This document shows, one piece after another, positions 31,459 to 61,516 of a DNA stretch of 64,000 nucleotides. The DNA comes from Myxococcales bacterium 68-20 (GTDB taxonomy: Bacteria > Myxococcota_A > Polyangia > Polyangiales > Polyangiaceae): contig MKVQ01000039.1 of the NCBI GenBank assembly GCA_001899635.1, forward strand, positions 1-64,000, in the 5' to 3' direction. Each line of letters begins with the position of its first letter. Position 1 is the stretch's first letter. The translations under genes and the position numbers were made by a program. The notes beneath the pieces were generated by a model. The model had not been told where the DNA came from. It saw only the letters and a list, made by a program, of their open reading frames with translations, and made no database searches.

Positions 31459-32514
31459 TCATTGAGAGCCGCAGAAGGCGACGCAACTCGCAGTGCCACT
31501 GCCGTCGGGCTTGACGCAAGCACCCTGACACTCGGAGCCGAGCTCGTTGCTGCAGCGTGTTCCGGCGGCCTCACGTGGCGCGCAGAGCCTGCCGCCGTCG
31601 GCGCTCTTGCAATACAGCCTCTCTTGGCAATCGGAGTTTCGCTTGCATGGTGCGTCGGCAAGCGCCGGTCCGTCTGTTCCGCACACGCCCAACTGGCAGC
31701 GGAGCCCGTCGGCGCACTCGTCGTGCGAATCGCACGAACCGTCCGCGAGCTTCGAGGGCCGGCAGGTGCCTTGCTGGAGGGCGCTCGAAGCACAGTAGGA
31801 GCCGGCGGCGCAACGCGGATGGGTGCCGAAGCCCCAGCGCAGCAACTCGATGAAGCCGCCGCCGTCAGGGATCGCGTAGCCGCAGAGAGCGCCTTCACCG
31901 GGGGGCGCCTTGCAGCTGCCGTCGCTCTGGGGCGTCCAGCCGATGCACGTGAGCCCGTCGAGGCACTCGTAGTCGTTTGCACACGGTGCGTCGGCGCCTT
32001 GCCGACCGACGAGCACTTCGGAGCAGCCCGCCGCCTCCTTGAAGATCGACCTCGCCGGCTCGTTGCTCGGCGTGCGTAGGACGTCGGGACACGTTCGTGC
32101 CTCGATCTCGCCGCTCACGTTCGTTTCGCACGTCGCCGCCGCCGCCGTAACGAACGCGGCGCGCCCGCTCTGGATGCTCTTTCCCAGAGACGTCGTGCAG
32201 GCGAGGACGAGGTTCTTCAGGAGCGCATCGTCAAACGAGTACTGCTTCGGCGCGGCGCTCGGATCGCAGCACTCCTCGTACTTCGGCGCGTAGAGGCCGA
32301 GCGTTCCCTTGCAGAACGCATCGAGATCGCTGTCGGCCGGCAACGTCGCGTCTGCGTGCGTGACGTCGAACGTCGACGCGTCGGGCGGTGAGCCATCCGG
32401 AGTCGAGGTCGTCGTCACGTCGGCCTCGTCGCCGCACGCCATAGCGAAGGACACCAGCGCGCCTCCGAGAGAGAGAGCGGTGAGCACTCGCCAGCGAAGC
32501 GCTTGGGGAACCAT
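31459..32514 (-). CDS. Cys-rich repeat lipoprotein
   Basis: 351 residues. The start at 32514 (MVPQALRWRV) gives a signal ending FAMAC (Cys27); upstream in-frame sequence is not signal-like. After a Thr/Asp/Pro-rich linker there is a helical region (FCKGTLGLYAPKYEECCDPS). The C-terminal 150 residues have repeated Cys modules (CANDYECLDGLTCIG, CDSHDECADGLRCQLGVCG, CKRNSDCQERLYCKSADGGR), as in Dickkopf-like or myxobacterial cysteine-rich repeats. It is probably an outer-membrane adhesion or binding protein. Confidence 0.8.
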   Translation of the reverse strand: MVPQALRWRVLTALSLGGALVSFAMACGDEADVTTTSTPDGSPPDASTFDVTHADATLPADSDLDAFCKGTLGLYAPKYEECCDPSAAPKQYSFDDALLKNLVLACTTSLGKSIQSGRAAFVTAAAATCETNVSGEIEARTCPDVLRTPSNEPARSIFKEAAGCSEVLVGRQGADAPCANDYECLDGLTCIGWTPQSDGSCKAPPGEGALCGYAIPDGGGFIELLRWGFGTHPRCAAGSYCASSALQQGTCRPSKLADGSCDSHDECADGLRCQLGVCGTDGPALADAPCKRNSDCQERLYCKSADGGRLCAPREAAGTRCSNELGSECQGACVKPDGSGTASCVAFCGSQ

Positions 32515-32819
32515 CTCGATAGAGATTATTTGATTCCGAGAGACGCTGCCATGAGAACAAGAGATCAACCCTCCACGCTCATGGTTCGGACGACAAGGCG
32601 CCCGTACAACTACATGGGCCTTCCCTGGGAACTCGAACTCTAGCCGGCCGAAACCGGAACCGAAGATGACTCCGTCGACGCACGAAGGCGCACTACAGGT
32701 GCGTGCTCCACGGATATCGGCAGTGCACGCCGCGAGCTCCGCCTCGCCGAGGGTCGAGCTGGGCCAACGTTCTACGAGCCGGACAGAATTTTTCGATGAG
32801 ATCGTGATATGCGTGTCAA

Positions 32820-33203
32820 ATGACATCCGTTCGATATCTGGGACGAGTGGCGGCCTCTCGAGCGCTGGGGCCATCGCTACTCATCGCGTGCCTCCTTGCA
32901 GCCGCGCCGGCGTGTAGCAGCAACGACGATGCCCAGCCGTCGCCTTCCGGAGAAGATGCCGGGGGGACGAACGAGAAGGATGCAGCCGCCGTGGATAGCG
33001 GGTCGGGTCCGGCACGGTCGACGTGCGAGGACACGGGAGCGTTCGTCACTGTCGATGGCGGGGAGTCCCCGTGGACCGAGGCCGAGCCGCTGGACGGAGA
33101 GGCGTGCTCGTCGGTCGGCGCAAAGTGGCGCGACGCATGCCAGTGCGGCAAGCGCTGCGACTGCACCGCAAGCGGTTGGGTGTGTGCGTTCCTGGCTTGC
33201 TAA
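32820..33203 (+). CDS. Small lipoprotein with Cys-rich C-terminus
   Basis: 127 residues with a signal peptide ending PACSS (lipobox Cys32). An Asp/Ser/Gly-rich linker is followed by about 60 residues holding eight cysteines (TCEDTGAFV, ACSSVG, ACQCGKRCDCTASGWVC). An upstream ATG at about 32808 is closed by a stop after four codons. It diverges from the Cys-rich lipoprotein on the other strand. No family recognised. Confidence 0.65.
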   Translation: MTSVRYLGRVAASRALGPSLLIACLLAAAPACSSNDDAQPSPSGEDAGGTNEKDAAAVDSGSGPARSTCEDTGAFVTVDGGESPWTEAEPLDGEACSSVGAKWRDACQCGKRCDCTASGWVCAFLAC

Positions 33204-36234: not shown

Positions 36235-37305
36235 TTACGGGATGATTCGCTCGCGGCGGAGCTGGTCGAAGAGGTCGATGAACGACCGCTCCGAGTCTTG
36301 GTACTCGAGAAAGCCGAACCGGCGGCTCTTCGACATGTCGTTGACGGTCTCGAACGGGCGTCCGAGATCCGCGTCCGTGTGCCACGGCGAAGCGAGATGC
36401 CGGAGCTTGTTCGGTTGGAGTCCGTGTTCCTTCACGAGCCGCTCCCAGATGGCATCGGTGCTCTCGCCGGCCATCTGGCGCTCGAGCGGCTCTCCGGGCT
36501 CCGTCCCCGGCTCGACGTCGAAGTAGCGGGCGATCTTCGGCCAGAGATGCTTCCAGCGGAACACGTCACCGTTCACGACGTTGAAGGCTTCGTTTCGCGC
36601 GCTGGGGGTCGTCGATGCCCACGAGAGATGGCGCGCGAGGAGCCGCGCGTCGGTCACGTCGGTCAGCCCCTCGAATTGGGCTGGGGATCCGGGGAAGACC
36701 AACGGCCTTCCCGTGGCCTTGCAGATCGATGCCCACGTCGCGAGCGTGACGCCGATGTTCATCAGGTTGCCCACGGCGTAGCCGACGATCGTGTGCGGGC
36801 GATGAACGCTGAACCCGAACCCATGACGGGCGGCGAAGTCGAAGAGGATGTCCTCCTGCGTGTAGTAGAAGTTCTCGCCGGAGAGGCGGGGCTGATCCTC
36901 GCGAAACGGCGTCTCGGGCTTGTTCTTCGCGTAGGCCTCGAACGGCCCGAGGTAGTGCTTGGTTCCGGTGACGAGGGCCACGTGTCGAACCGACTTCGAG
37001 CGGGCGGTGACGGCCTCGAGGACGTTTCTCACGAGCGCTCCGTTGACACGGACGTTCTCGACCTCGGTCGCCATCCTCATCCACGCGCTCACGAAGACAT
37101 GCGTGGGCTCGACTGCGGCGAGCCGCGCTCTCGTCGCGTTCTCGTCGAGCAGGTCGACCGCAACCGTCTGGACCTCCGAGTAGCCGACGAGCGGCCGGCG
37201 TGAGACGCCGAAGACGGACCAATCGCCTTCAGTGAGGAGCTCACGCGCGAGGTTTTGACCCACGAGACCGCTGGCTCCAATGATGAGTGCTCGCTTTTCG
37301 AACAT
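36235..37305 (-). CDS. PRISE-type NAD(P)H-dependent reductase (atypical SDR)
   Basis: 356 residues from MFEKRALIIGASGLVGQNLA; the frame extends to 37356. The GASGLVG cofactor loop, SRRP after strand 2, VALVTGTKHYLGPFEAY and FYYTQEDILFDFAARHGF match the progesterone 5-beta-reductase/iridoid synthase-like (PRISE) extended SDR family, including its GTKHYLG motif and catalytic Tyr/Lys region. Plant and bacterial members reduce enones and other activated double bonds. It diverges from a LysR gene with 75 bp between the starts, suggesting inducible expression. Confidence 0.85.
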   Translation of the reverse strand: MFEKRALIIGASGLVGQNLARELLTEGDWSVFGVSRRPLVGYSEVQTVAVDLLDENATRARLAAVEPTHVFVSAWMRMATEVENVRVNGALVRNVLEAVTARSKSVRHVALVTGTKHYLGPFEAYAKNKPETPFREDQPRLSGENFYYTQEDILFDFAARHGFGFSVHRPHTIVGYAVGNLMNIGVTLATWASICKATGRPLVFPGSPAQFEGLTDVTDARLLARHLSWASTTPSARNEAFNVVNGDVFRWKHLWPKIARYFDVEPGTEPGEPLERQMAGESTDAIWERLVKEHGLQPNKLRHLASPWHTDADLGRPFETVNDMSKSRRFGFLEYQDSERSFIDLFDQLRRERIIP

Positions 37306-37380
37306 GCGTTGAACATGCGACCGTCTCGACCTGAGAGCTAGACTCTCGAATGGCACATCACTTATGAGGTGAGCTCACAA
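37306..37380. promoter_or_regulatory. Divergent regulatory region with two dyads
   Basis: GAGAG-CTAGA-CTCTC at 37333-37347 and the perfect palindrome GTGAGCTCAC at 37369-37378 lie between the PRISE reductase and LysR starts. GAGGTGA at 37366-37372 also serves as the ribosome binding site that fixes the LysR start at 37381. Confidence 0.5.
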
Positions 37381-38298
37381 ATGGGAAGGCCCGACCTCAA
37401 CCGCTCCGGAGACATGGAGGTGTTCGTTCGGATCGTGGAGACAGGCAGCTTCTCTGCCGCCGCGCGAGCCCTTCGGATGACACCGTCGGCGATCAGCAAG
37501 CTGATCACCCGACTCGAAGCTCGGCTCGGCGTTCGACTCTTCGACCGATCCACGCGGAAGTTGCAGCTCACGCCGGAGGGAACGCTCTTTCACGAGCGGA
37601 GCGTCCGCGTCCTTCGCGAGCTCGACGCCGCCGAGCTCGAGATCTCGCCGGGCGTGGCCCCGCGAGGGATCCTCCGCGTGAACGTGAATGTGGCCTTCGG
37701 ACACCACTACTTTCTTCCGCTCGTCCCGGAGTTTCTAGTCCTCTACCCCCAGATCAAGCTGGAGGTGATGCTCACGGACGCCGTCGTCGACCTGCTCGCC
37801 GTGCGGGCCGACGTCGCGATTCGCACCGGTCCGCTGCGTGCGTCGCGCCTCGTCGCACGAAAGCTCGGCGAGACGCGTCCCATCGTCGTGGCGTCACCGG
37901 AATATCTCGAGCGGCACGGGACGCCGCGCAAGCCGTCGGATCTGACGAAGCACAACCTGCTCGGCTTCACCTTCGTTCGGCACCTGAAAGCGTGGCGCTT
38001 CGTCGATCGTGCTGCCCGCTCGACGACGGTCGCACCCCAGGGGAATGTCCTCGTGAGTGATGGCGACGCGATGCGACGGCTCGCCGTCGCGGGGGGCGGG
38101 ATCGCGCGCCTGCTCGAGTACGAGGTCAGGCCCGACATCGAAGCCGGACGGCTCGTTCCGCTCCTCGAGGGCTACGGTGCAGGAGACGTCGAACCAGTGC
38201 ACGCGGTGTTCGTCGCTCAGGACGGGAAGATGCCGGCACGCGTACGTGCGCTCCTCGACTTCATGGTCGCGAACGTCGAGTTGAGCGCCCGCTCGTGA
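37381..38298 (+). CDS. LysR-family transcriptional regulator
   Basis: 305 residues. The ATG at 37381 is preferred to the in-frame GTG at 37369 because GAGGTGA sits 8 bases before it. HTH: MEVFVRIVETGSFSAAARAL, then TPSAISKLITRLEARLGVRL. The effector domain follows (LRVNVNVAFGHHYFLPLVPE, ADVAIRTGPLRASRLVARKL), resembling the CrgA-type subgroup. It is divergent from and likely controls the PRISE reductase; it could also influence the convergent biosynthetic cluster. Confidence 0.92.
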   Translation: MGRPDLNRSGDMEVFVRIVETGSFSAAARALRMTPSAISKLITRLEARLGVRLFDRSTRKLQLTPEGTLFHERSVRVLRELDAAELEISPGVAPRGILRVNVNVAFGHHYFLPLVPEFLVLYPQIKLEVMLTDAVVDLLAVRADVAIRTGPLRASRLVARKLGETRPIVVASPEYLERHGTPRKPSDLTKHNLLGFTFVRHLKAWRFVDRAARSTTVAPQGNVLVSDGDAMRRLAVAGGGIARLLEYEVRPDIEAGRLVPLLEGYGAGDVEPVHAVFVAQDGKMPARVRALLDFMVANVELSARS

Positions 38299-38353
38299 GA
38301 GTCGCTCCGAGGGCGAGGCGGAGATCCAGAGCCCCACGGACCGGAGGGTGACG

Positions 38354-39646
38354 TCATCCGGCGCGTTCGGCATGAGCGGGGCGCCCCAGCTTCCCGCGTG
38401 CCCGGAGGGGCTTCGCGACCGAGTCTTCGATGATGGAGAGGGCCATGTCGAGGTCGGCCCGCGAGTGGCCCGCGGAGATCGACGCACGGAGGCGGACGCG
38501 GTCCTCGGGCACCGCCGGATAGTCGATCGGCAGGATGTAGAGACCGCGTTCGAGCATCTCGAGCGCCGCGTCGTAGAGCAGATCGCGCTCGGCCCCGACC
38601 ATGATCGGGACCACGTGCGTCGTCGACAGCCCCGTATCGAGCCCCATCGAGTGGAGCGCGCCGCGGAAGTAGGTTGCGTGCTCGGCGAGTCGCGACCGCC
38701 TCTCGGGCTCCGCGCGAGCGATGCGTACCGCCTCGATGTTGGCGGCGACCACCGGCGGAGGGAGCGAGGCCGAGAACCCGAAGGGGTGGGCGTAGAGTCG
38801 GGCGTACTCGAGCAGCTCGCGTGGCCCGGAGGCGAAACCACCCATGCTCGCGATGCTCTTCGAGAACGTGCCGAAGAGCAGCCGAACGCGGCGCGCGACG
38901 TCGTAAACTTCGGTCGCCCCTCCGCCATGCTCACCGATCGCGAAGATGCTGTGCGCCTCGTCGACGATCAGGCCCACCTGATGCGCGTCGCAGACGTCCA
39001 GGATCGCAGGCAGGTTCGCGACGTCGCCGTCCATCGAATAGATCCCGTCGACGACCACGAGCCGGCGCTTGCCCTTGTGTCTCGTGAGCTCCTCGTCGAG
39101 AGAGCTCGCATCTTCATGGCGGAACATCGCCAGCTGTGCGCCCGATGAACGGACGCCGTCGAGCCAGCACATGTGCGCCTTCTCGTCGGCGATCGCAACG
39201 TCTCCACGACGGAGGAGCCCCGACATGAGGCCAAAGCCGCCACTGAATCCGCTCGGGAAGAGCATCGTGGAGGGACGACCGAGCGACTCGCTCACGCACG
39301 ACTCGAGCTCGAGATGGAGCGCCGTCGTACCGGAGAGGAGGGCGACACCACACGAGCCGGTGCCCCACGTCTCGAGCGCGCTGCGTGCGGAGCGGACGAC
39401 CCGCGGGTCCCGGTTGAGCCCGAGATAGTCGAGGGAAGCGAGGTTGACGAGCTCGCGCTCCGAATCGCCGATGTGAAAGCGGGTACGTGCGCCCGACGCG
39501 GAGGCGAGCGGTCTTCGAAAGAGGCTCTGCTCGGGCCGCGTGGCCTCGCGCCAGGCGGAGAAGTCCGGTGGCGCGGCGAGCGGGTCGTCGTCGTGACCCT
39601 GCCAGAAGTCGCCCAGGTTCTGTTGCTTCGCCGTTTGCCGATCCAT
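38354..39646 (-). CDS. Alpha-oxoamine synthase (KBL/BioF/SPT family), last gene of a biosynthetic operon
   Basis: 430 residues from MDRQTAKQQNLGDFW, the first ATG after the SDR stop; the longer frame reads into the SDR gene. LNLDYLGLNRDP-like ASLDYLGLNRDPRV, TWGTGSCGVALLSGTTALHL, IVDEAHSIFAIGEHGGG and TFSKSIASMGGF (PLP lysine) identify the alpha-oxoamine synthase family, which joins an amino acid to an acyl thioester with loss of CO2. Members include 8-amino-7-oxononanoate, serine palmitoyl and CqsA-type signal synthases. Here it sits with FabD, FabZ and FabL-like enzymes, so a chain-release role giving an amino ketone is inferred. Confidence 0.85.
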   Translation of the reverse strand: MDRQTAKQQNLGDFWQGHDDDPLAAPPDFSAWREATRPEQSLFRRPLASASGARTRFHIGDSERELVNLASLDYLGLNRDPRVVRSARSALETWGTGSCGVALLSGTTALHLELESCVSESLGRPSTMLFPSGFSGGFGLMSGLLRRGDVAIADEKAHMCWLDGVRSSGAQLAMFRHEDASSLDEELTRHKGKRRLVVVDGIYSMDGDVANLPAILDVCDAHQVGLIVDEAHSIFAIGEHGGGATEVYDVARRVRLLFGTFSKSIASMGGFASGPRELLEYARLYAHPFGFSASLPPPVVAANIEAVRIARAEPERRSRLAEHATYFRGALHSMGLDTGLSTTHVVPIMVGAERDLLYDAALEMLERGLYILPIDYPAVPEDRVRLRASISAGHSRADLDMALSIIEDSVAKPLRARGKLGRPAHAERAG

Positions 39647-39647
39647 G

Positions 39648-40451
39648 TCACAACCCCCGCTTCTCGCGCTCGGAGTAGAGGTGCGAGATACCGTCGCTGA
39701 ACGTCGCTCCGCGATCGACCGTGATGACCTGCCCACGTACGGCATCGAAGAAGCCGCTGCCGAGGGCAAGGGCGGCTTCGGCGACCTCGTTGCAGGTCAT
39801 GAACCACTCATCGTCGACGAAGCGACGCAGGAAGCCATAGAACTCGCCACCGAACGTCGAGTCGAACGACTCGGTGCGAATCGCACGCGAGCGAATGACG
39901 TTGATGTTCACCGGCTCCTCGCGCACGCGAAACTGCACGTAGCGCATCAGCGTCTCGAGCACGGCCTTCGAGGCCGCCACGAAGTCGTACGCGTTCGTGT
40001 ATCGATCCGGACCGTCCGACGACATGATGATGGCGTGTCGCGGAAAGCGCGTCGTGTGCTTGCGTAGCGCCAACAGATACTCGAACGTGGGCCAGGCGCT
40101 CGCCCGGAAGCTCTGATAGAGGCCGCGTTCGCTGTAGTCGTCGAGGCTCTTCACGAGGAGCGCCATCGACGCGTTGCTGACGAACACGTCGACCTTACCG
40201 TAACGCTCCGCGATCCGAGCCGCGAGGCTGTCGGTCTCCTCCTTGTTCGCGACGTCCGCCTCCACGAGCCAGGGCTCCGGCCCGCCGACGTCGCGAAAGG
40301 CCTGCCTGATCTGCGCCTCGTCCGCCGTGCCCCAGCGGTAGGTGAGGATGGCTTTCGCCCCGTACCGCGCGTAGGCGAGGGCCGTCGCGAGGCCGATGCC
40401 TCGCGTTCCGCCGGTGACGAGCAGTACGGTGTTCGAATGATCGAGACTCAT
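39648..40451 (-). CDS. SDR enoyl reductase, FabL-like
   Basis: 267 residues. TGGTRGIGLATALAYARYGA is the cofactor loop. VSNASMALLVKS replaces NNAG. YDFVAASKAVLETL gives a Tyr-x6-Lys pair, which is the spacing of enoyl-ACP reductases (FabI/FabL) rather than the Tyr-x3-Lys of ketoreductases. The C-terminus (VRGQVITVDRGATFSDG) also fits FabL. It starts within ATGA of the upstream gene and ends two bases before the synthase start, so it is translationally coupled on both sides. Likely reduces an enoyl thioester intermediate of the cluster. Confidence 0.82.
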   Translation of the reverse strand: MSLDHSNTVLLVTGGTRGIGLATALAYARYGAKAILTYRWGTADEAQIRQAFRDVGGPEPWLVEADVANKEETDSLAARIAERYGKVDVFVSNASMALLVKSLDDYSERGLYQSFRASAWPTFEYLLALRKHTTRFPRHAIIMSSDGPDRYTNAYDFVAASKAVLETLMRYVQFRVREEPVNINVIRSRAIRTESFDSTFGGEFYGFLRRFVDDEWFMTCNEVAEAALALGSGFFDAVRGQVITVDRGATFSDGISHLYSEREKRGL

Positions 40452-40660
40452 GAGCCCGACAATGCGGTCTCGTTCGCGACGCGGTGAAGGAGGTCGACGA
40501 GCCCGTTCATGCGTGGCAGGTGCCGTCCGCCGAGAGATCGGGCGAAACGACGACCGAGCTCGCGGACCATGGCCTCGCCGAGCGCGTTCTGACCCGCGGC
40601 GTCGTTCATCGTCACGATGGCGATACCGTCCTCACGCTCGATCTCGACCAGGGAGCTCAT
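40448..40660 (-). pseudogene. Enoyl-CoA hydratase gene with an internal deletion
   Basis: The start at 40660 has GGAGG five bases upstream. The first 45 residues (LVEIEREDGIAIVTMNDAAG, then QNALGEAMVREL) match the N-terminus of crotonase-family proteins, especially the ECH enzymes of polyketide beta-branching cassettes. A normal length is about 250 residues; here the frame goes directly into a 25-residue tail (RHLPRMNGLVDLLHRVANET) and stops. The oxyanion-hole and catalytic regions are missing, so it cannot be an active crotonase. It keeps coupling to the downstream SDR. Confidence 0.65.
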
Positions 40661-41233
40661 GACGTCCTCCACGGAACTTCTCCGTCGATGAAGCTCCTCC
40701 GCGTCGACCGCCATGCCATCGGGATGCTCCGGACGTTGGACCGAAGACGCCGCACGGATGCGAAGAAGGAGCGAAGGCGGTCCTGCACGCGTTCGTCGGC
40801 GAGCTTGCTCGGCGGAGCGCTCGGCCCCCTGCGCGATCGCGGCGGCGACCGAGTTGTGCCCGGACACGACGACGGACGAGGTGTCGGGCTCGAGCTCGGC
40901 GGTGGTGAGCCCAGCGTCGTGCCAGGCGGCCGTGCCGAGAAGCATCGATAGCTTCGTCGTCCACGGCGCGCGCGCGACGAGCTTGCGAAGACGCTTGTGG
41001 ATCGGTCCCGGGAGCACGGCTTCCAGCGATGCGACCTTCGCCTCGACGTCGTAGTCCGAGATGTCGCCCCCGATCTTGCTGTAGACGCGGTCCGTCGGGA
41101 ACGCGCGCCAGCGCCGGATCGACGATCGGCCTTCGTAGAGTGCGTCGCGAAAGCCCTCCAGCGTGTCGCCGAGGCCCGTGTTGATCGACATGCCGGTGAT
41201 GACCACGCGAGCTCGGGGATTGTGCTCACCCAT
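40661..41233 (-). pseudogene. Beta-ketoacyl synthase, N-terminal remnant
   Basis: From MGEHNPRARVVITGMSINTG about 127 residues match a ketosynthase N-terminus (GRSSIRRWRAFPTDRVYSKI, VHKRLRKLV-like IHKRLRKLVARAPW, LLGTAAWHDAGL), ending at VVVSGHN near 40853. The active-site Cys and both His regions are absent. Past that point another frame (LADERVQDRLRSFFASVRRL to a TGA overlapping the ATG at 40660) looks like the end of a different gene. A deletion therefore joined two genes out of frame. The start overlaps the FabZ stop by 8 bases. Confidence 0.7.
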
Positions 41234-41750
41234 CGATGTAGGCCTCCGAGACGGCATACGCGGCGAGAGCGCCGCGGCAGTAGATCTGACCGAGCGCCGA
41301 GACGAGCATCCCGTCGTCGACTGCCTGCGCGTGAATCTCGATCTCGTCGCCGGCGTGGATGGGCGCGATGAAGGCCGCGTCGCGTACGCGCGTGAATCGG
41401 GCGAGGCGCGGCGTTCCGGTGTCCGGGCGCCCGGTCTTCGAGCGTACGAACGGCAGGACGGCGAGGGCCGCTTGCGCCATCGATTCGACGAGGAGCACGC
41501 CCGGGTAAATCGGCGCGTCCGGGAAGTGTCCGGCGAAGACCGGATCGCGCGCGTCGATTACGCGCTGGGCGCGGATCCGTGCGCCAATCGGGTCCACCGC
41601 AAGGATCGCGTCGAGGAGCAGCATCGGAGCCCGATGCGGCAAACATCTCGCAGGGTCTGCGTCCTCTTCCCCGACCACGAGCCCCTCTCCCTCGGGGAGG
41701 AGCGGTCCGCGACGGAGGCGTCGCACCCAGTCGTCGACATGATCACGCAT
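41226..41750 (-). CDS. FabZ-like beta-hydroxyacyl thioester dehydratase
   Basis: 174 residues of hot-dog fold. HRAPMLLLDAILAVDPIGAR opens the domain, GHFPDAPIYPGVLLVESMAQ holds the catalytic His (GHFP) and Glu (VES), and FTRVRDAAFIAPIHAGDEIE is the conserved later block. It has a 40-residue N-terminal extension compared with FabZ. Start and stop overlap the neighbouring genes by 8 bases each. It would dehydrate a 3-hydroxyacyl-ACP intermediate ahead of the FabL-like reductase. Confidence 0.85.
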   Translation of the reverse strand: MRDHVDDWVRRLRRGPLLPEGEGLVVGEEDADPARCLPHRAPMLLLDAILAVDPIGARIRAQRVIDARDPVFAGHFPDAPIYPGVLLVESMAQAALAVLPFVRSKTGRPDTGTPRLARFTRVRDAAFIAPIHAGDEIEIHAQAVDDGMLVSALGQIYCRGALAAYAVSEAYIDG

Positions 41751-42681
41751 CGCGGAGCGCTCCGACCGTGGCCTGGAAGGTTGCTCGAAGGTCTTCCCCG
41801 ACGTCCGTCGCCAGCCTCCGGTTCTTGATCCAGCGGCGCCCGAGCAGATTGGAGAGGATGTTGCCCGGCCCCACCTCCACGAACGTCACGTCGGGCATCT
41901 CGGCGACGCATGCCTCGACGGATGCACGCCACTGGACCGGCCGGTGGACGTGCTCGGTCAGGCAGCGAACGACGTCGGCGGCCGAGGCACCCCGCATCGG
42001 CGAGCCGGTCACATTGGGCCGGTACACGAGCCGCGGCGCTCGGAACGGCGCTCGTTCGAGGTGCCGTCGAAAGCGATATGCGACCGGCTCGAACGTCGAG
42101 GTGTGCATCGGTACGCGTTCTTCGATCGTCCGCGTCTCCAAGTAGTGCTCGCGTAAGAGGTATTCGACGACACGGTCGACAGCAGCACTATCTCCAGCGA
42201 TCACGTGCTGGGTGGGCGAGTTCACGTTCGCGATCTCGACGCCTCCGTTCCCGTCGAGAGCCCGCCGGATCGCGATCTCGAGCTCTTCTCGGTCGAGCGG
42301 GAAGACGGCGACCATCTTTCCGGATGGCCCACGGTCGTACTCGGTGCCGCGAGCGTCCACGAGACCGAGCAACGACGCGTCGTCGAGCGCGCCGACGTGG
42401 CGCAAGTGCGCGTATTCGCCGAGGCTCAGGCCGAGCGACGTCTCGGCACGGAGGCCCGCGTCTTCGAGGGCCGCAAGATGCATCAGCGTCGTGACGAACA
42501 CACCGACCTGCACGTGGCGGTTGTCGCGCGGCATGGGCTCTGCGTCCTCGATCCGAAGGTCGCGGCCGAGGACCTCGCACGCCCAATCGAGCACGCGCGC
42601 GCTCGGGTCTCCGAGCGAGCATGCTCGCCCCATCATCCCCGCCCGCCACGAGCTCTGTCCTGGGAACAGGAAGCAGATCAT
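41743..42681 (-). CDS. Malonyl-CoA:ACP acyltransferase, FabD/trans-AT-like
   Basis: 312 residues from MICFLFPGQSSWRAGMMG; the open frame runs on to 42822 through the regulatory dyads. FPGQSS, the nucleophile elbow GLSLGEY (Ser86), VNSPTQHVIAGD and PMHTSTFEP (catalytic His) define the acyltransferase. GxSxG reads G-L-S-L-G, as in FabD and the stand-alone acyltransferases of trans-AT pathways. It is the first gene of the operon running to 38354. No acyl carrier protein gene is found in the window, so a carrier must come from elsewhere. Confidence 0.88.
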   Translation of the reverse strand: MICFLFPGQSSWRAGMMGRACSLGDPSARVLDWACEVLGRDLRIEDAEPMPRDNRHVQVGVFVTTLMHLAALEDAGLRAETSLGLSLGEYAHLRHVGALDDASLLGLVDARGTEYDRGPSGKMVAVFPLDREELEIAIRRALDGNGGVEIANVNSPTQHVIAGDSAAVDRVVEYLLREHYLETRTIEERVPMHTSTFEPVAYRFRRHLERAPFRAPRLVYRPNVTGSPMRGASAADVVRCLTEHVHRPVQWRASVEACVAEMPDVTFVEVGPGNILSNLLGRRWIKNRRLATDVGEDLRATFQATVGALRDA

Positions 42682-42720
42682 GACGACGTTGACGCTATCG
42701 TCACTGCGAAGCCGGCGGGA

Positions 42721-42773
42721 GTCGCCCTTAAGGGTGACGCGGCTTACACGTGTCTCCACTGCTCGTGTAAGCC
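42721..42773. promoter_or_regulatory. Two inverted repeats in the divergent promoter of the biosynthetic cluster
   Basis: 42721-42738 is GTC-G-CCCTTAAGGG-T-GAC, a dyad with one mismatch. 42741-42750 (GGCTTACACG) pairs perfectly with 42764-42773 (CGTGTAAGCC) across 13 bases. Both lie between the FabD start (42681) and the dehydrogenase start (42822), followed by an AT-rich stretch (GATTATTATCG) near 42804. They are the likely binding sites of a regulator controlling both directions. Confidence 0.6.
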
Positions 42774-42821
42774 ATTTGAATCGTGACTTGGTATTGGGGC
42801 TCTCGATTATTATCGTAAGCA

Positions 42822-43829
42822 ATGAAAGTGCTGGTAACTGGAGCGACCGGCTTCATCGGAGGACGTCTCGCGGAGCGGCTCCTCGATCGAGGCGACGATG
42901 TGCGAGTCCTCGTTCGCCGTCCGGCAGCAGCACGCGCGCTCGCAGAGCGTGGCGCCGAGGTCTGCGCAGGAGATCTGCTCGATCCGGATAGCTTCGGGGC
43001 CGCGCTGTCGGGCGTCGACGTCGTCTTTCATTGTGCTGGCCTCTCCGCCGACTGGGGACCTCGCGCTGACTTCGAGCGGATCAACGTCGACGGCGCACGT
43101 GAGCTCGCGAGGGCTGCAGCGACCCAGCCCGTGAAGCCGCGCTTCATTCATGTCAGCACCACCGACGTCTACGGATATCCATCGCTCGCATGCGGCGACG
43201 ACGGCCCAACGCGTGACACTGGGCTTCCGTACAACAGCAGCAAGCTGCGTGGTGAGCTCGCAGTGCGAGCGGTCGCGGAGGCGTCGAAGCTTCCGCTCGT
43301 CGTGGTCCGACCCGCGACCGTGTACGGGCCCGGCAGCAAAGATTGGGGCCTCGAGATGGCGACGCTCCTCGCACGGCGCGCGATGGTGGTCGTCGACGGA
43401 GGTAGCGCGCCGGCAGGTCTCGTCTACGTGGACAATCTCGTCGACGCCCTCCTCGCGGCGGCCGAGCCCTCCGTCCCGCTCGGCGGCATCTACACGGTGC
43501 GGGACGAGACGAAGGAGACGTGGAGGCAGTACCTCGATGCGCTCGCTGACGGTCTCGAAGTGCCCCGGGTGAAGACGAATCTTCCGTACTGGCTCGCGCT
43601 GGCGCTCGGTGGTGCGTCGGAGGCGTTGTGGAAGCTCGGTCGAGCGAAGTCGCGTCCGGTGGTGACGCGCCACGCCGTGCACATCCTGGCGAAGGACCAG
43701 TGCTACGGGATCGACCGCGCGGTGAAGGACCTCGGGTTCCGCTCGCGGGTCTCGTACGACGAGGGGGTTCGACGAACGGTCGCCTGGCTCCGCTCGTCGG
43801 AGCTCCGAGGAACCACGACGGCGTCGTGA
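42822..43829 (+). CDS. NAD-dependent epimerase/dehydratase (3-beta-HSD/OleD-like extended SDR)
   Basis: 335 residues. TGATGFIGGRLAERLLDRGD is the cofactor loop, LVRRPAAARALAERGAEVCA follows strand 2, FHCAGLSADWGPRADFERIN and HVSTTDVYGYPS carry the Ser/Thr, YNSSKLRGE the Tyr-x3-Lys pair, and VVRPATVYGPGSKDW is the usual downstream block. The 3-beta-HSD/OleD branch acts on beta-keto or hydroxy substrates, which would suit reduction of an alpha-oxoamine product. It diverges from the FabD operon across shared dyads, so co-regulation is likely. Confidence 0.85.
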   Translation: MKVLVTGATGFIGGRLAERLLDRGDDVRVLVRRPAAARALAERGAEVCAGDLLDPDSFGAALSGVDVVFHCAGLSADWGPRADFERINVDGARELARAAATQPVKPRFIHVSTTDVYGYPSLACGDDGPTRDTGLPYNSSKLRGELAVRAVAEASKLPLVVVRPATVYGPGSKDWGLEMATLLARRAMVVVDGGSAPAGLVYVDNLVDALLAAAEPSVPLGGIYTVRDETKETWRQYLDALADGLEVPRVKTNLPYWLALALGGASEALWKLGRAKSRPVVTRHAVHILAKDQCYGIDRAVKDLGFRSRVSYDEGVRRTVAWLRSSELRGTTTAS

Positions 43830-53133: not shown

Positions 53134-53682
53134 TCAGCCCTCGTCGTCGGCGACCTTCTTCGGCGACACGATGGGACGAGGCGCGACCTTCTTCGGTCCG
53201 CCCCGCAGCATGAGAGTCAGCTGCGGATCGTTCGAGAAGAGCCGCTCCCCGGGGATCACCACGTCCCAAAGACCGAAGACGGCTGCGAGTACGTGGTCGA
53301 GCTCGCGTGTCGCGAGCGTTCGCTCGAGGTTCGGGCGCTCGGGCAGGCAGTAGACACCCAACCTGGAGCCTTCCAGCGTGTGGAGCACGCCCTTCGACCA
53401 GCCGCCACCTGCGTACGCGAGGCATCCTGGAATCCACATGGCTTCAAGGTCCTGGAGCGCGTACGGAATCTTCTCGTCGGTGGTCCCCTGCGAGTCCTGG
53501 TACTTGCACTCGATGCCCAGGGCACGCTGATCCGCACGGCGCAGGGCGAGGATGTCGAGCTGTCGATTCTTGCCGATGATCGTCTTCCCGAGGGCGACCT
53601 CGGTGTAGACAACGATCCCCCTGCGGGCGTAGTTCGCGTCGATGTACGCCGCGATCAGGTCCCGATACTCATGCGGCTTCAC
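53134..53682 (-). CDS. PD-(D/E)XK-type restriction endonuclease
   Basis: About 182 residues from a GTG at 53682 (VKPHEYRDLIAAYID), which overlaps the methyltransferase stop by 14 bases; an ATG at 53742 would add 20 residues. The nuclease core reads QLDILAL (Asp63, numbering from 53742), then GIECKYQ with Glu78 and Lys80, preceded by VVYTEVALGK, an ordinary D-x(n)-ExK arrangement. DEKIPYALQDLEAMWIPG follows. Together with the overlapping methyltransferase gene it forms a type II-like restriction-modification pair; the recognition site cannot be read from the sequence. Confidence 0.78.
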   Translation of the reverse strand: MKPHEYRDLIAAYIDANYARRGIVVYTEVALGKTIIGKNRQLDILALRRADQRALGIECKYQDSQGTTDEKIPYALQDLEAMWIPGCLAYAGGGWSKGVLHTLEGSRLGVYCLPERPNLERTLATRELDHVLAAVFGLWDVVIPGERLFSNDPQLTLMLRGGPKKVAPRPIVSPKKVADDEG

Positions 53683-54433
53683 CGCGGGTGATCTTACGGA
53701 CCCGACGTTCGGGAGCCCAACTTTCGGGGGAGTCGGTCGCAATGAGGCGCCCAGGTTGAGCGCTTAGCTCGAGAAGCCTCTGCTTTGTGATCCGGCAGGC
53801 GTCCTTGCTGATGTCGGTGCCGGCGAAGCTGCGACCGTTTCGGACGGCGGCGACGCCGAACGCGCCGGACCCCATAAACGGATCGACTACGAGCTCGCCG
53901 GGGAGGCTGCTTTGCGCGACAAGGACCTCCGCCACCTCCACCGGCTTTTCGGTCGGGTATCCGTTGTGAACCCGAGGCGCTTCGATGATGTCGGGGACGC
54001 CGAGGTTCGCGAGGCGGCGCTTTCCCTTCTCGAAGAAGAGGATGCACTCGTACCGGGCGCGGTAGTGGTAGCCCATGCCGATCCTCTTCTTGTCCCAGAT
54101 GAGGGGCTTCCAGAACTTGAAGCCGCTCGCCTCGGCGATCGGCTTGGCGACGAACATCGTCTCGGGATCGCAGAACAGGTAGAAGTGCGCGTTCTTCTTC
54201 AGGGCCCGGTAGACCTCGGCGAAGAACTCGGGGAAGCGGGCGTTCGGGAAGATCGAGAACCAGTCGTTGCTCGACGCCTTGCTGTGCTTGAGGCGGGTCG
54301 TCGTCCCGACCGCCCGGTGCTTCTCCAGGGACTCGTAGGCTGGGTCCGTGATGAGCAGGTCCACCGAGGCGGCGGGGAGGGAACGGAGCCACGACACCGC
54401 GTCCGTCTGCGCCAGCTCGAACACAGCCGCCAT
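53669..54433 (-). CDS. Beta-class DNA methyltransferase
   Basis: 254 residues from MAAVFELAQTDAVSWLRSLP; longer upstream frame has no similarity. Motif IV is DPAY (30-33, in LLITDPAYESLEKHR), GYPTEKP is at 158-164, and motif I VVDPFMGSGAFG is at 182-193, so motif IV precedes motif I as in class beta. DPxY rather than SPPY favours N6-adenine over N4-cytosine methylation. The gene overlaps the downstream nuclease gene, the usual arrangement of type II systems in which methylation is made first. Confidence 0.85.
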   Translation of the reverse strand: MAAVFELAQTDAVSWLRSLPAASVDLLITDPAYESLEKHRAVGTTTRLKHSKASSNDWFSIFPNARFPEFFAEVYRALKKNAHFYLFCDPETMFVAKPIAEASGFKFWKPLIWDKKRIGMGYHYRARYECILFFEKGKRRLANLGVPDIIEAPRVHNGYPTEKPVEVAEVLVAQSSLPGELVVDPFMGSGAFGVAAVRNGRSFAGTDISKDACRITKQRLLELSAQPGRLIATDSPESWAPERRVRKITRGEAA

Positions 54434-54729
54434 CCGACTTGTTTCGCGCAGAATTTGGCGAACGGACAACTTCTTGATGGTGAGGCTCCGCTTTCGGTCG
54501 TGTCGAGCCGATTGGCTACGGCTTCGCCATCTCTTCCAGGTGGTGGACCCGACCTCACCGCGGCGCGCCCTTGCCGTCGCTCTCACTCGCGCTGCGAGCG
54601 AAAGAGCATGGCGAAGGCAGGACCACTTGCTGCGTCCCCCGACGAAACCGTTTAGTGGGAACGCACGTGCCGTGTGCCGCGCGCTATCCATGCCCCTATG
54701 CCGTAGTGGAGCTCGTCGCGTGATGGCCG
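54434..54729. other. Gap between the methyltransferase and the large NTPase gene
   Basis: 296 bp. Contains the promoter region expected for the restriction-modification pair. No conserved gene is seen. Confidence 0.4.
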
Positions 54730-57700
54730 CTATCCGTCCTCTTCGGCACGCCGTCGACGTTCTCGGGCTTGTCGGCTCACTTCTTGGAGGTCGATCTCAC
54801 GCCACTTTTCGCGAGTCAGTGCGACGAGTCGTTTATAGGCAGCGTGCGCGTCATGCACGCTTGTCTGAAAGACGCGCAACTCGTTCGCGTGCTCCGCTGA
54901 GTCAGCGTGCTGGTGGGAAGCGATGAACTTTGATTCGCTTCCGCTGGGCAGCTCCCGGAAGAATTCGTCACGCGCGATCGTTCGGAGGAACGGCTTTACA
55001 AAGGCTGTAACCGCCGTCCGTGTCTCAACGTCGTAGATGTGGAAGCCGGTCGCCGCGTCGAGTGCCTCGATCTCGTCGTAGTAGAAGAAAGTTGAGTGCG
55101 GAATGATGTGGTACCCCGCACGGTCGAAAAAGTGGTCGGCCTCATCGAGCGGCAGCCGCAACCAGAAATCGCGTAACGCACGGAGATCACGCGCGCGCGT
55201 GTCCTGGCCATGCTCGGAAGGTCCGGAGGAAGGACTGCCTCCGAGGCTCGCGCCGTGGGCGCCAGCGGGCGGGACGGGCCCTTCCGTGAGGAGGGCGACC
55301 GTATACGCCGCAGCAACGTCGTAGGCGTACTTGCGCCACTTCTTTGTCTCCGGCGCGTTCTTTGATGGATTCGCATAATCGGACGCGCTCCGAATCATGA
55401 AGAAGCGCGGCTTGCTCGGCATCTCGTCGAGCATCCCCGCGGCGCCGGCGGCTTCCATTTCGACGCCGATCAGCTTGCCCCATATGCTCTGGTACTCGAA
55501 GATCAGCTCCTCGAACGCAACGACATCTCCGCCCGACGCGATGACGCCGTCGCGGCGCACAGGTGCCCCGGGGCCCGGTCGTGGCTCCTTAATGCGCTTT
55601 TCCCATCCGGCTTCGAGGTTGTGGGCACTGTCGAACAGATTGGGAGCCGTTCGATACACCTGCCACCGGACCCTCCGCCTTCCGAGGCTTCCCATGAAGC
55701 GTCGTATGCGGCCGAGGATGCCTCGCTCTGGTTCCACCTTTCCGAGCGTGTAGTCCGCGATCTGCTCGGCGATGAGCACGTCGCCGAGATCAACTTCGCC
55801 GCGCACGCCGCCAGCGATCCCGACCAAGAGGACGTGCCGCGGGCTCCAGCGCCTTACGACCGCGACGGTTTTCGCTGCCGCTCGTTGAGGTCCCATGTTG
55901 CTCAGGCAGGTCACGATGATGCGGTACGTGGCTCGGTCGGGGCGCCGCGTTTGCAAGTCGGCCTCGTAGTATGTGTGAAAGTCGTCGTCGTCCTTTGGCA
56001 GTTTGCGCGGACCGACGAGATGGGCAAGCACGGCGTCTCGCTCGTCAGGAAGCGCGGTGATGATGACGAAGTCCACAATCGTCGCCGTCGTCGTCTGCGC
56101 TGGGACGTTTTCGCGCGGAGCGGGTGACTCATCGACGCCGGGGGGCACCATCGCGGCGCGCCCCCCGAGCGGGAGTCCACTACCAACTATGTCGTGCGGA
56201 CTCTTCGAGCCTGCAGGCGTGTCCGCTCGGCTATCCGGATGCGCAAAACCTCCAGCTTGTACGGCGTTCAAGACGTAGGTCGCCGCATTGTCGGCGGCGA
56301 TCCGCTGTCGTGCCTTCTTGTCCACTCCCTTGTTGCCGTCAGCGTAATCGCAGACGGCCTTCACCAAACACCAGGCGATCTGCCTCTCGACCGCCGCCAC
56401 GTAGAGGCCGCCCCCCTCCATCTCACCTCCGAGCGCCTCCGGTTCCAGGCTCCGCAGTTCCTCCCGGGATTCATAGTTGTCGACGAGACTCTCACCGGAG
56501 AGGAGGAGGCCGAAGTCAACCTTGAATTCGGCGGTTGCCGTCCTCGATGCCCTCAGACGGCTCAGAACAGTCGGCGACGAAGAGGCTCGGTCCCCACGCT
56601 TAAGGACTTTCCGGGTCTTCCCATCCGTCCCGGTGCCGATCCTCTGCGGTCCGTACGGATGAATCTGCTTCGCGACCAGCACTGTGCCGATGGGTTGTTT
56701 CGCAGGATCAACACCGAATGCGATCCCGACCATGATGGCCGTTGCTGGGCGGATTTCATCGATCGCCGTGAGGACAGTCGCCAGCGAGCCGCCAGCGGTT
56801 GCCGTGCCCATCTCCGTCTGCACAACGACAACGCGCGCACCTCCGATCGTTCCAAGGTCATCGTAGGTTCGATGGCGACCATGGATCGGGCCCTTGGGTT
56901 GTGGGGCCCCGGTGATTGCTCGGGCCGCGCGCATGACCGCTTCGTGCTCGACGTCGGTTGCGACAACGAGCAGCAAGTCAGCCAACCGATCGCTCTGATC
57001 TCGTTCACCGCACCCACTCGAGGCGCTGACTGCGTAGACTCCGTGCATAGGTCCGCCAAGGGAATGAGCCGATTGCTCGGTCCTAGGTCTCAGGTCAACT
57101 GGCATCCCAACGTCGACGGCGATAGGCGGCGCCGCGCCATTTAGTTTGGATGTGACGGGATGACGGACGGTCGCAACAAGCGGCTTCCTAACGTGGTCCA
57201 GCGCCGTAGTCGCATTCTCGAGAAGGACGTCCAAGTCTTTCTGCACGCGCCACCCGAGCGTGCGACTGTCGCCGACCATCACGGGGCCGGTACCTAGTCC
57301 CGCTAGATTGATCGATAGGTCCGCAAGGTTCATCGCCTTGTGGGACAGGCCGGTCGCTTCCCGGAGGTCACGCCATGTAATCAGGCGGAGGGAAGGGTCA
57401 TCGAGAAGCAGTCTGCGAAGTGCCCCAAGCGTCAGCTCGATGAGCTCCAGAGCATTCCCGCCCCATCTCGATGCAAGCAGACCACGAAGCGTGACTGCGA
57501 ACGTCGTCTCTTCGTCGTTGAGCGTTCTCAGATACGAACCGGTGAGGGCGTCGATCGCCCGGTTGAGTCCCGTCGTATCTAGCTCTGGGCGCTGCTTCTT
57601 GACACGAGTGCGGATCTCGCTCCGCTTCGGCGCGCCATCGCAGAGGCCGAGGCGCAGGTGCTGCTCCAAGACGATATCGAGCACGCGCCGCTCCACATCG

Positions 57701-60700
57701 TCAATCCCCTCGACGAACTCGGAAACCGGTCCAAGGGCTGGAGGAAGCCGGAGTGCAAGGCTACGCTCTCGGCCTTCTTTCGTCAGAGCTGCCGCGTTGT
57801 CGTACGAGCGCCCTGGCCCAGCATCGGAGACCTCGACAAGCGCGTGGGTCGCAAGTTGGCGCAGGGTGTTCCAACACGCCCCTTCTGAAAGACCGGAGAC
57901 AAGGGCGACATCGTGCACTCGGACGAATCGGCCCTGCGTAGCCTGGCGTTCTTCATCGCTGAGGAAGAGGAGCAACTCCTCGTCCGGCGGAGGCTCGCCA
58001 GGTGTGGTGTGAGCACTAGGCGTCGCTGTTCTCGGTGCGTCGGAGAACCAAGACCCCCTATCATCGAGGAGCAACTCTCCCCGAGCACTCTCGGCTGTTC
58101 GAATTAACCAGCGCGCAACGGGATCGGCAGGGTCCGCCAAGACGCGCCGAATGAGGGCGCTGGAACGGGACGCGAGGAGTCCGGCGAGGCGCAGCCGTCT
58201 CCACGCAGAAGGGAGCCCCCGACTGGCCGCATCGCGGACGATTAGCTCGACGGCATCGTCCGGGATCAGCGGGCCGATTGCGGAAAATGAGCCGAGAAGG
58301 CGGTCCATACGGGGATCGGAACCACTCGCCATCTGCGCGAGACGCATAAGTGCGTCCGATGGGAATGTCGGTAGCGCCGCCTCGAATACCGACACGAGCT
58401 CGTCGAACTCGTTTGCGCTGGAGAGTCGCTCGAAGATGCCCGGGTGAAACTTCCGCATCTTGACTTGCTGGATAATGGAGCAAGCCGTCTGGTCGCCTTG
58501 ACCAGCTTTGTCGGCGATCTCTTCACTCGCAGCAGGCGGGCCGAGAGCACGCACCGCTCGAGGCATCAAGGGGGCGGTTGGCTCAGCCTTCAAGCGATCA
58601 TAGAGGAGCCGAGCGTGAAGAGGCGGCCCTGAATCGCTCCCAACGCGAACTTCGAGCCCTGTTCGGCGTTCCCAGTCGAGCCACAAGGGGAATAGCCGGG
58701 ATAGTTGGTAACCGTCAAACAGGCGTGGTTGATGTAACGCCATCCCGATCATGCGGGGCACGCCACCGGGCGTGATCTTGCAAACCGCGCCCACGAACTG
58801 CTCGAACACTCCTGGCGTGATGAGCGACGTATCGGCATGCCCGTCGGCTCGGGTGAGCCGACCGAATAGCTCGCCCATGAGCGTTTCGGGCAAGGTGTCG
58901 AGCTCAGCAAGAGCGCCGAGCGCCGGAATGCGGTCGCGATTCCCAAACGACGGGGGAAGGGCCGACAAGAGTTCGGGTAGCGCGGCCTTACCTAGGATGC
59001 GTGCCAGGGCACGCCAACCCATCGACTGGATCACCTCGGAGGTCGAGCCTATCCAAGCGCGGGCGGTGGCTTCGGTGACGATTCCCGGCTCCGCCATGCC
59101 AAACGCGCCACTGCGTGGCGGCAAGAGTCCGTAGAGAACTGTCTGTGCCCTTCCGATCCACTCGCGACCCCGGAGGTCAAATATGTAGGAGGCCGCGTCC
59201 AAACTAGATTCAGTCATCGTCGGGAGCCGCTCAATCATTCGCTCGAGCGCGGAGTCGTGAGCACAGCTCGCGATGAGCCGGCCGACGTGAAACGGCATCG
59301 AGTTACTCGGGGGCAGTCGTTCGAGTTGGTCCGCGAGCCAGTCGGCTGCCACGGCATTTCTCCCCCGCTCCGAAACGATGCGCAGCCGGTAGGATTCGGT
59401 GCTGAATAAGGGATTGTCGTGGTGCGCACACCAATGCGGCATGCTCGACGCGCACGCCACGGCTGCTGCCGATGCCTCCGCTAACGGAATCCTGCCTTGT
59501 TTGAATAGGCGTTCGAGCCACGGCTCCCATCGGTCGTCGCCGCGCGCGGCGACGACTTCGAGAATTAGCGTCCGAACGCCCTTCTGTTCGAGGTGGCGCT
59601 CCAGTCGATCACGAGCGCACCAAAGGCGCTCGAGGGGCAATGCGGCGACGATCTCATCGAAGATTGAGAGTTTCTCTCGCGTCTCGGGGAGCGAGCGAAC
59701 GGCGTGCTCAAGGAGCTCGTCGTCTCCCGCTCTGACGGCGGCGAGTGCACCTCGGTACCTCTCCGCAGCGTCCGTGTCCTCGAGCAACTCGCTCGCGCGT
59801 TTGACGACGAGTGCTCGCGCGCTCTCGCCATTCTGACCGCTATTAGGTAGTCCGGATGCAAGGAGTGCTGCGAGTTGGACATCGATCGGCGCGCTTGCGC
59901 AGACCTGTTCGGCGGTGCAAGCGACACCGGACTCCAGCGCGAGCGCGATACTGTCGCGCAGGTCGAGCCGTCGGGCGACCGATGTGGGTAAGGGGGTCCC
60001 GAGGAGCAAGAGCCCACGTCCGACGAGCCATTCCCAGTAGAGGTCGTGGACGGGGCGGAGTTGTCCACGGTGCTCGGCGAGTGTACCGATCCGAGTCAGG
60101 AGATCACGCCCTTCGGCGAGTCCCAATTTACTCGCTTGGCGATCGAACATGCCGATAAACGTGGCGTACTTCGGTGGCGTGCGCGTGCAGCAGTCTGCGG
60201 CTGCAAGGCTTATCGCGTCGAGGAGACGACTTGCCTCTCGCAGATCGCGCGTCTGATGGCGGTGGTAGCGATCGAGGAGCACTCCGCGCGATTCGACGGA
60301 ACGCCCGAGGAGCAGCGACAAGACGACTACGAGCGGAAGGTGGCTTATCGACCGCCCTGTGCTCGCGTCATGATGGATGCTGGTGTCGAGGGCAAGACCC
60401 TCCAGCGCGCTTTCGGGCATAGGCTGGAGTTCCCAGATCGTGAAGCGGGTATCGTCCTCGCGCGCGTGTCTGCCGGTCGCGATCACACGGTTGTGCGGGA
60501 ACGCTGCGAGTACGCGACGCCGCTCATGCTCTTCGCCTGGTCGAGAGGTCCGTGGAAATTCTGTCCAGCCGTCGAGGCAGATGACGACGCCCGGAGCATC
60601 GAGCACTGCAGTGGAATGCTCTCGCTCCGCGAGTTCGCGGACAAATCTGAGGAGATCGTCTGCTGTGTCGAAATCGGACGCCGTGATGAACAACCAGGGG

Positions 60701-61368: not shown

Positions 61369-61493
61369 CGCGAACCAGTGTCGCCGCGGCCAAGCCGACG
61401 GGTCAACCGTTGTCGGGCCGATGGTTCGAGCTGCACAGCCGGTGCACAACACGACCCCACAAAACGTCGAGACCCGGAAAGAACCGGGGCCCG

Positions 61494-61516
61494 TGGTGGA
61501 GGCGCCGGGCATCGAA
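61494..61516 (-). other. Sequence resembling the 3' end of a tRNA or tmRNA gene
   Basis: Read on the minus strand, TTCGATGCCCGGCGCCTCCA followed by CCA looks like a T-loop, acceptor strand and CCA end. The 5' half of the T-stem does not pair (CCACGA precedes TTCGAT), so no complete tRNA is present. Such fragments are typical attachment-site remnants of integrated islands. It lies just upstream of the large NTPase gene. Confidence 0.4.

Follow-up and report, generated by a model that had tools for sequence, protein, structure and literature searches.

The stretch of DNA analysed here (the window; 64,000 nucleotides of Myxococcales bacterium 68-20) carries on its minus strand what is left of a biosynthetic gene cluster that, as judged from sequence, has most likely been disabled by two natural deletions, i. 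e. by pseudogenisation. Its ancestor would have been a discrete-enzyme polyketide or fatty-acid cluster with beta-methyl branching of the HCS (HMG-synthase) type and an alpha-oxoamine synthase. The two deletions, of about 3.4-3.7 kb and 1.6-1.7 kb, would have disabled this cluster in the present genome, and the losses may have been tolerated because a second cluster, located on contig C26 of the same genome, would supply similar chemistry. The event is of a known kind, ordinary cluster decay.

Gene layout of the window

AT, DH, the last short-chain dehydrogenase of the cluster (SDR3) and the oxoamine synthase (AOS) are kept in the window. On the minus strand the order is AT, DH, a fused 261-aa frame, SDR3 and AOS. 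The open frames of the four kept genes are intact. AT (41743-42822), a stand-alone acyltransferase resembling FabD and MdcH, has the GLSLG motif, and its homology to the nearest relative, locus L002, begins near 42672. DH (41226-41750), a FabZ-like dehydratase, has the GHF and ES motifs. SDR3 (39648-40451) has the Y-x6-K motif and is 52% identical to the L002 SDR3 over residues 4-266 of 274; its nearest NCBIfam model is the enoyl reductase FabL, with a score far under the cut-off. AOS (38354-39769), a PLP-dependent alpha-oxoamine synthase of the BioF/Kbl family with a GTFSK motif, shows homology to L002 from near 39658 on.

The open frame at 40448-41233, described in an initial annotation of the sequence, is real, lies on the minus strand and encodes 261 aa. 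It consists of remnants of KS, ECH1, ECH2 and ACP. Pfam recognises a partial ketoacyl-synthase domain alone (8e-8, profile positions 3-125 of 252), and the 70-aa piece beginning at the inner start 40660 gives a sub-threshold crotonase match (Pfam, E 0.12). The nearest NCBIfam models, PRK07103 for the KS piece and PRK07110 for the crotonase piece, both score far under their cut-offs. Automatic annotation would call one odd 'ketosynthase' at this scar.

Downstream of the cluster a PRISE-like reductase (36235-37356, minus strand) adjoins a LysR-type regulator (37369-38298); these two genes may or may not be part of the cluster. Farther away, a 471-aa frame (31459-32874, minus strand) has a cysteine-rich stretch similar to Dickkopf_N and a weak codon-usage score. 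A 2260-aa frame (54730-61512, minus strand) has a nucleoside-phosphorylase-like domain (PF01048) and candidate defence matches in PADLOC (PDC-M60C, PDC-M68A, 'Effector' models of the PN superfamily and of endonucleases, and SAVED_HNH). Beside it lies a frame matching type II DNA methyltransferases (53669-54691, minus strand), and the region has a lower G+C. The 2260-aa frame is possibly a large multidomain anti-phage protein.

The conserved cluster in relatives

When the KS piece was searched against named genome contigs, one relative was found, L002, which is titled as a Cyanobacteria MAG. At an E-value of 1e-10, KS relatives turned up in 10 of 143 further genomes from the surroundings of the window's own; the 11 genomes of the same genus had none. 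At 1e-25, and with the own genome included, a KS match was found in 35 of 317 genomes of the class and in 12 of 377 genomes drawn evenly from the phylum. With the L002 genes as queries 28 loci were mapped: L002 itself, the paralogue in the window's own genome (L016; C26:1-14000), loci from 24 of the 34 other genomes of the class and two from further genomes of the phylum.

The common gene order is AT, DH, KS, FabG, HCS, ECH1, ECH2, SDR, ACP, SDR. Where the fetched stretch includes a match to the oxoamine synthase, it sits at either end of the cluster. In some loci ACP follows both SDRs, and four loci (L059, L060, L074, L075) are arranged otherwise. L074 has two oxoamine synthase matches in one locus. 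Usable copies of KS, FabG, HCS, ECH1, ECH2 and ACP are present in 25 of the 28 loci. The exceptions are L021, which has no match to ECH1 and ECH2, L022, which has no match to HCS, ECH1, ECH2 and ACP at the locus, and L023, which matches all genes but whose copies with N were dropped before counting. Cassette genes can also lie apart from the KS locus: in genome G040 ECH2 is on another contig, and in G034 HCS and ECH2 are on other contigs. Loss of the cassette as a recurrent trend was considered and dropped, since ECH2 is present on other contigs in the genomes of L021 and L022, as is HCS in G034.

The first deletion and the ECH1 remnant

The KS remnant (40853-41233) comprises residues 1-127 of about 430 and matches the KS profile at positions 6-130 of 431 with 159.5 bits. 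It is 59% identical to the L002 KS (58% in the search of named genome contigs). The initial annotation had let the ketosynthase homology stop after VVVSGHN, and it does: this motif ends at residue 127, base 40853, and the profile homology at 40841. The remnant thus stops ahead of the catalytic Cys and His motifs as located in the relatives. The junction of the first deletion, from KS to ECH1, is placed at 40843-40853, to within a few codons. Most of KS, FabG, HCS and most of ECH1 were removed by it.

The different frame that follows had been taken for the end of a lost upstream gene. This part of the claim stands; the gene appears to be the first enoyl-CoA hydratase, ECH1, and its remnant contains a frame change near 40804 that had been missed. 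The remnant (40756-40843, profile positions 214-242 of 250) begins in the KS frame and shifts to the +1 frame near 40804. A frameshift-aware script with traceback gave an ECH1 score of 48.9, compared with a mean of 31.6 (sd 3.8, maximum 38.7) for 40 shuffles. In the frameshift-aware alignment of 40850-40655 the same score of 48.9 corresponded to a z of 4.3 and lay above all 60 shuffles (maximum 39.1). When no frame change was allowed, the best score was 32.7, which is within the shuffles (mean 29.2, sd 3.7). When the two halves were scored separately, 51 of 2000 shuffles equalled the one ahead of the change and none of 2000 the one behind it. Plain HMM searches of the three minus-strand frames of 41240-40440, with profiles derived from the mapped relatives, gave no significant match to ECH1, FabG, HCS or the SDRs. 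ECH1 reached -1.7 bits in these searches; its assignment hangs on the frameshift-aware alignment.

Codon usage, scored after training on five genes of the window, leaves the KS frame for the +1 frame somewhere between about 40830 and 40800 and is ambiguous from 40783 on. It favours the KS frame again at 40738-40694, a feature not accounted for by an ECH1 tail in the +1 frame. What remains of the scar as far as the presumed ECH1 stop (40657-40755) ends with FIDGEVPW, which by eye resembles ECH1 C-termini; for about 95 bp of it (40755-40661) neither profiles nor frameshift-aware alignment assigned a family. An origin of the scar middle from KS, FabG, HCS, ECH2, SDR2, ACP or SDR3, the seven families compared besides ECH1, was rejected with z between -1.3 and 0.8 versus 4.3 for ECH1. 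A KS running on past GHN into SVAAAIAQGAERSAEQ was also rejected (KS register -15.4 versus 25.3 for ECH1). The reading of the post-KS frame as the end of ECH1, including the frame change, is moderately supported by these alignments.

The second deletion

The TGA at 40657-40659 overlaps the ATG at 40658-40660 with which the head of the hydratase ECH2 starts, as had been observed before. The ECH2 head (40538-40660) comprises residues 1-41, possibly up to 45, and matches the profile at positions 3-43 of 249 (26.3 bits, i-Evalue 6e-10). The initial annotation had recognised this head (its first 45 residues; about 41-45 by the present analysis) and ascribed the following tail to the same hydratase; the tail does not belong to it and fits the C-terminus of an ACP. 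This tail (40448-40522) matches the ACP profile at positions 50-68 of 73 with 7.8 bits, a match that is weak in itself (i-Evalue 5e-4 for three frames), and alignments point the same way. It is devoid of the NSLD serine segment found in the relatives. It directly precedes the SDR3 gene with a 4-base overlap of stop and start, and ACP has the same placement in L002. The identification of the tail with the ACP of the cluster is moderately supported. The junction from ECH2 to ACP is located at 40523-40537, to within about 5 codons. Since an ECH2 head is joined to an ACP tail, the second deletion covers three genes: most of ECH2, one SDR and most of ACP were removed.

Ten of the 28 loci were picked for the same gene order to estimate the spans. 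The first deletion corresponds to 3398-3696 bp in nine of the ten and to 6364 bp in L018, the second to 1567-1714 bp in all ten. The total loss is thus about 5 kb, and some 310-330 bp survive as an island between both joins. The alignment with homologous clusters that had been proposed as a check locates both deletions to the precision given above; the break points are not fixed to the base, because L002, though the closest of the relatives, shares only 44-59% identity with the kept proteins. The earlier claim of two separate losses is supported. Sequence comparison establishes which genes the KS and ECH2 remnants derive from and how the genes are ordered in the intact relatives. The remnants follow each other as in the intact operon, with strong matches for KS and ECH2 and moderate ones for ECH1 and ACP. 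The identity of the lost genes (the HCS cassette and two reductase-like ones), the frame change and the existence of an intact paralogous cluster had escaped the initial annotation.

The intact paralogous cluster

A full paralogous cluster, which has its own AT, DH, SDR3 and AOS, is located on contig C26 of the same genome. The lost parts that were searched, namely the KS C-terminus, HCS, ECH2, SDR2 and ACP of L002, have their best own-genome match there, and so has the KS N-terminus beside the window itself, with 51% identity. For HCS and ACP there is no other own-genome match at an E-value of 0.001; the ACP search also missed the short ACP remnant in the window. These best matches on C26 indicate that the searched parts have not been left on another contig. 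The oxoamine synthase of the C26 locus shares only 33% identity with its L002 counterpart.

Kept genes and age of the loss

In a tree of 24 taxa calculated from the AT, DH and KS pieces, from which loci lacking one of the three were excluded, the window stands beside L002 with an ultrafast bootstrap of 94. Its branch length is 1.00 versus 0.65 for L002. Sites were regarded as conserved where the column was at least 85% uniform. DH retains 29 of 37 such sites, the lowest value of 26, and the KS piece 33 of 39, by a narrow margin the lowest of 28. The values for AT (70 of 77; ninth lowest of 26), for SDR3 (64 of 71; fourth lowest of 23) and for AOS (68 of 86; fourth lowest of 22) are not extreme, and all five pieces are under the median of the relatives. 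The ECH2 head retains 5 of 5 sites and the ACP tail 5 of 6. These mixed values and the branch lengths would agree with a non-ancient loss plus some relaxation, or with kept genes that remain at work beside C26. As the neighbouring genes retain open frames and catalytic motifs, we infer that the events were biological and probably not ancient.

Alternative explanations

An assembly or consensus error, with a cluster that is intact in the organism and an assembler that dropped two internal stretches, would be conceivable in a draft of 52 contigs where the window's contig is short (64,885 bases) and a paralogous cluster is present on C26. It is nevertheless unlikely. The searched lost parts are on no other contig save in the diverged C26 copy, which with 51% identity over the KS N-terminus seems too diverged for a collapse, and two separate losses plus a frame change would be needed. 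Decay accounts better for the frame change within the remnant than the joining of clean sequences would. The window contains no N, and its 48 called frames cover 80% of it, with gaps of up to 1,456 bp. Of the repeats in 38000-43000, those listed (20 of the 32 direct families and 25 of the 38 inverted pairs) are short and imperfect, which also speaks against misassembly; the scan is blind to repeats inside the missing DNA. Loss mediated by a mobile element or by repeats was rejected, as only the cluster's own frames are called between AT and the oxoamine synthase and the repeats listed are short and imperfect. A contaminant contig was rejected, too: the composition of all four parts of the window is closest to other contigs of the own genome, though for the 36-43 kb part by no more than 0.63 versus 0.61, and the own-genome reference has the advantage of being longer than the others.

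Even with real deletions, in which case only a duplicated cassette would have been lost, AT, DH, SDR3 and the oxoamine synthase could form a working accessory set that acts in trans with KS, HCS, ECH and ACP from C26. Their intact frames and catalytic motifs would be in line with this, as would the existence of split loci (G040 with ECH2, G034 with HCS and ECH2 on another contig). Yet all five kept pieces are under the median at conserved sites, with DH and KS lowest, the branch is longer than that of the sister L002, and C26 has its own AT, DH, SDR3 and AOS, so that such a set is rather unlikely. A function as a new protein is barely credible for the 261-aa fusion. The frame is open from end to end, with the KS, ECH2 and ACP pieces and the first part of ECH1 in one frame, but no piece keeps a recognised active site and codon usage changes frame inside. 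Moreover, the 36 other matches to the KS N-terminus are in open frames of at least 433 aa except for one of 180 aa, which lies in a locus with N runs; the query was the KS piece, not the fusion. Openness is also frequent in this composition. In 13 genes of the window, 48 out-of-frame codons are stop-free at 43% (+1) or 65% (+2) of positions, and 63 codons at 34% (+1) or 57% (+2). An open scar is thus no surprise, and the frame may well be open by chance, as had been proposed; sharing one frame across both joins has a chance of about 1/9, to be multiplied by about 1/2 for the open scar. Most likely the fusion is a non-functional scar. That selection holds the scar open, the frame from KS start to ACP stop keeping the translational coupling to the SDR3 start, is quite improbable. 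If this were true, the operon would still deliver AT, DH, SDR3 and a second oxoamine synthase, which would diversify the C26 product.

Comparison with known systems

An HCS cassette consists of five proteins: a ketosynthase, an HMG synthase, a dehydratase, a decarboxylase and a dedicated ACP (PMC7501309). Homologues of all five, named by homology, are present in 25 of the 28 loci, and the ancestral cluster would have had them as well. In the window KS, ECH2 and ACP are truncated, ECH1 is nearly absent and HCS is absent. With a KS piece short of the active-site residues, no HCS, and fragments of ECH1, ECH2 and ACP, the chemistry cannot run from the genes of the window. Like the beta-methyl-branching cassettes of bacillaene (PksF/PksG/PksH/PksI/AcpK) and curacin (CurD/CurF), the relatives combine a KS and an HCS with a pair of crotonase-family enzymes and a free ACP. 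The solved structures nearest to the L002 HCS are CurD and PksG; for ECH2 they are CurF and PksI. ECH1 is a more distant crotonase, with PksH among its solved-structure matches but not the best of them. In contrast to these systems, the L002 cassette sits together with a stand-alone AT, a FabZ-like DH, FabG, two further SDRs and an oxoamine synthase, and no modular PKS is found among the mapped genes of the locus.

The decarboxylase KSs of such cassettes carry Ser in place of the active-site Cys. In the relatives, Cys was found in 26 of 26 pattern-matched sequences (27 were examined; L071 was seen only to GGAC, and L023 was dropped for N). With a Cys, unlike the decarboxylases, the KS of the relatives may condense.

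The window AOS belongs with the alpha-oxoamine synthases such as BioF, Kbl and serine palmitoyltransferase. It matches the family (TIGR00858, TIGR01825 and solved relatives) over nearly the full length and has the GTFSK lysine. As its scores are under the NCBIfam cut-offs, the amino-acid and acyl substrates are not predicted. A possible interpretation is that AT, the FabZ-like DH, FabG and the further SDRs would act with the cassette to assemble and branch an ACP-bound acyl chain, which the oxoamine synthase would release by joining it to an amino acid. By its gene content, the cluster looks built to make a methyl-branched fatty-acid-like compound. To our knowledge no product of the conserved cluster is known, and a limited literature search at abstract level found none described. 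This conserved cluster, which joins a beta-branching cassette to an oxoamine synthase, is the more interesting part of what is exposed here, and a genome that has both an intact and a broken copy offers a good point of departure for testing the contribution of each kept gene.

Pseudogenised biosynthetic gene clusters are common in large bacterial genomes. A limited search of the literature on them found no paper on the present cluster. Like them, the window has deletion scars, open flanking genes and an intact paralogue, and there is no difference in kind.
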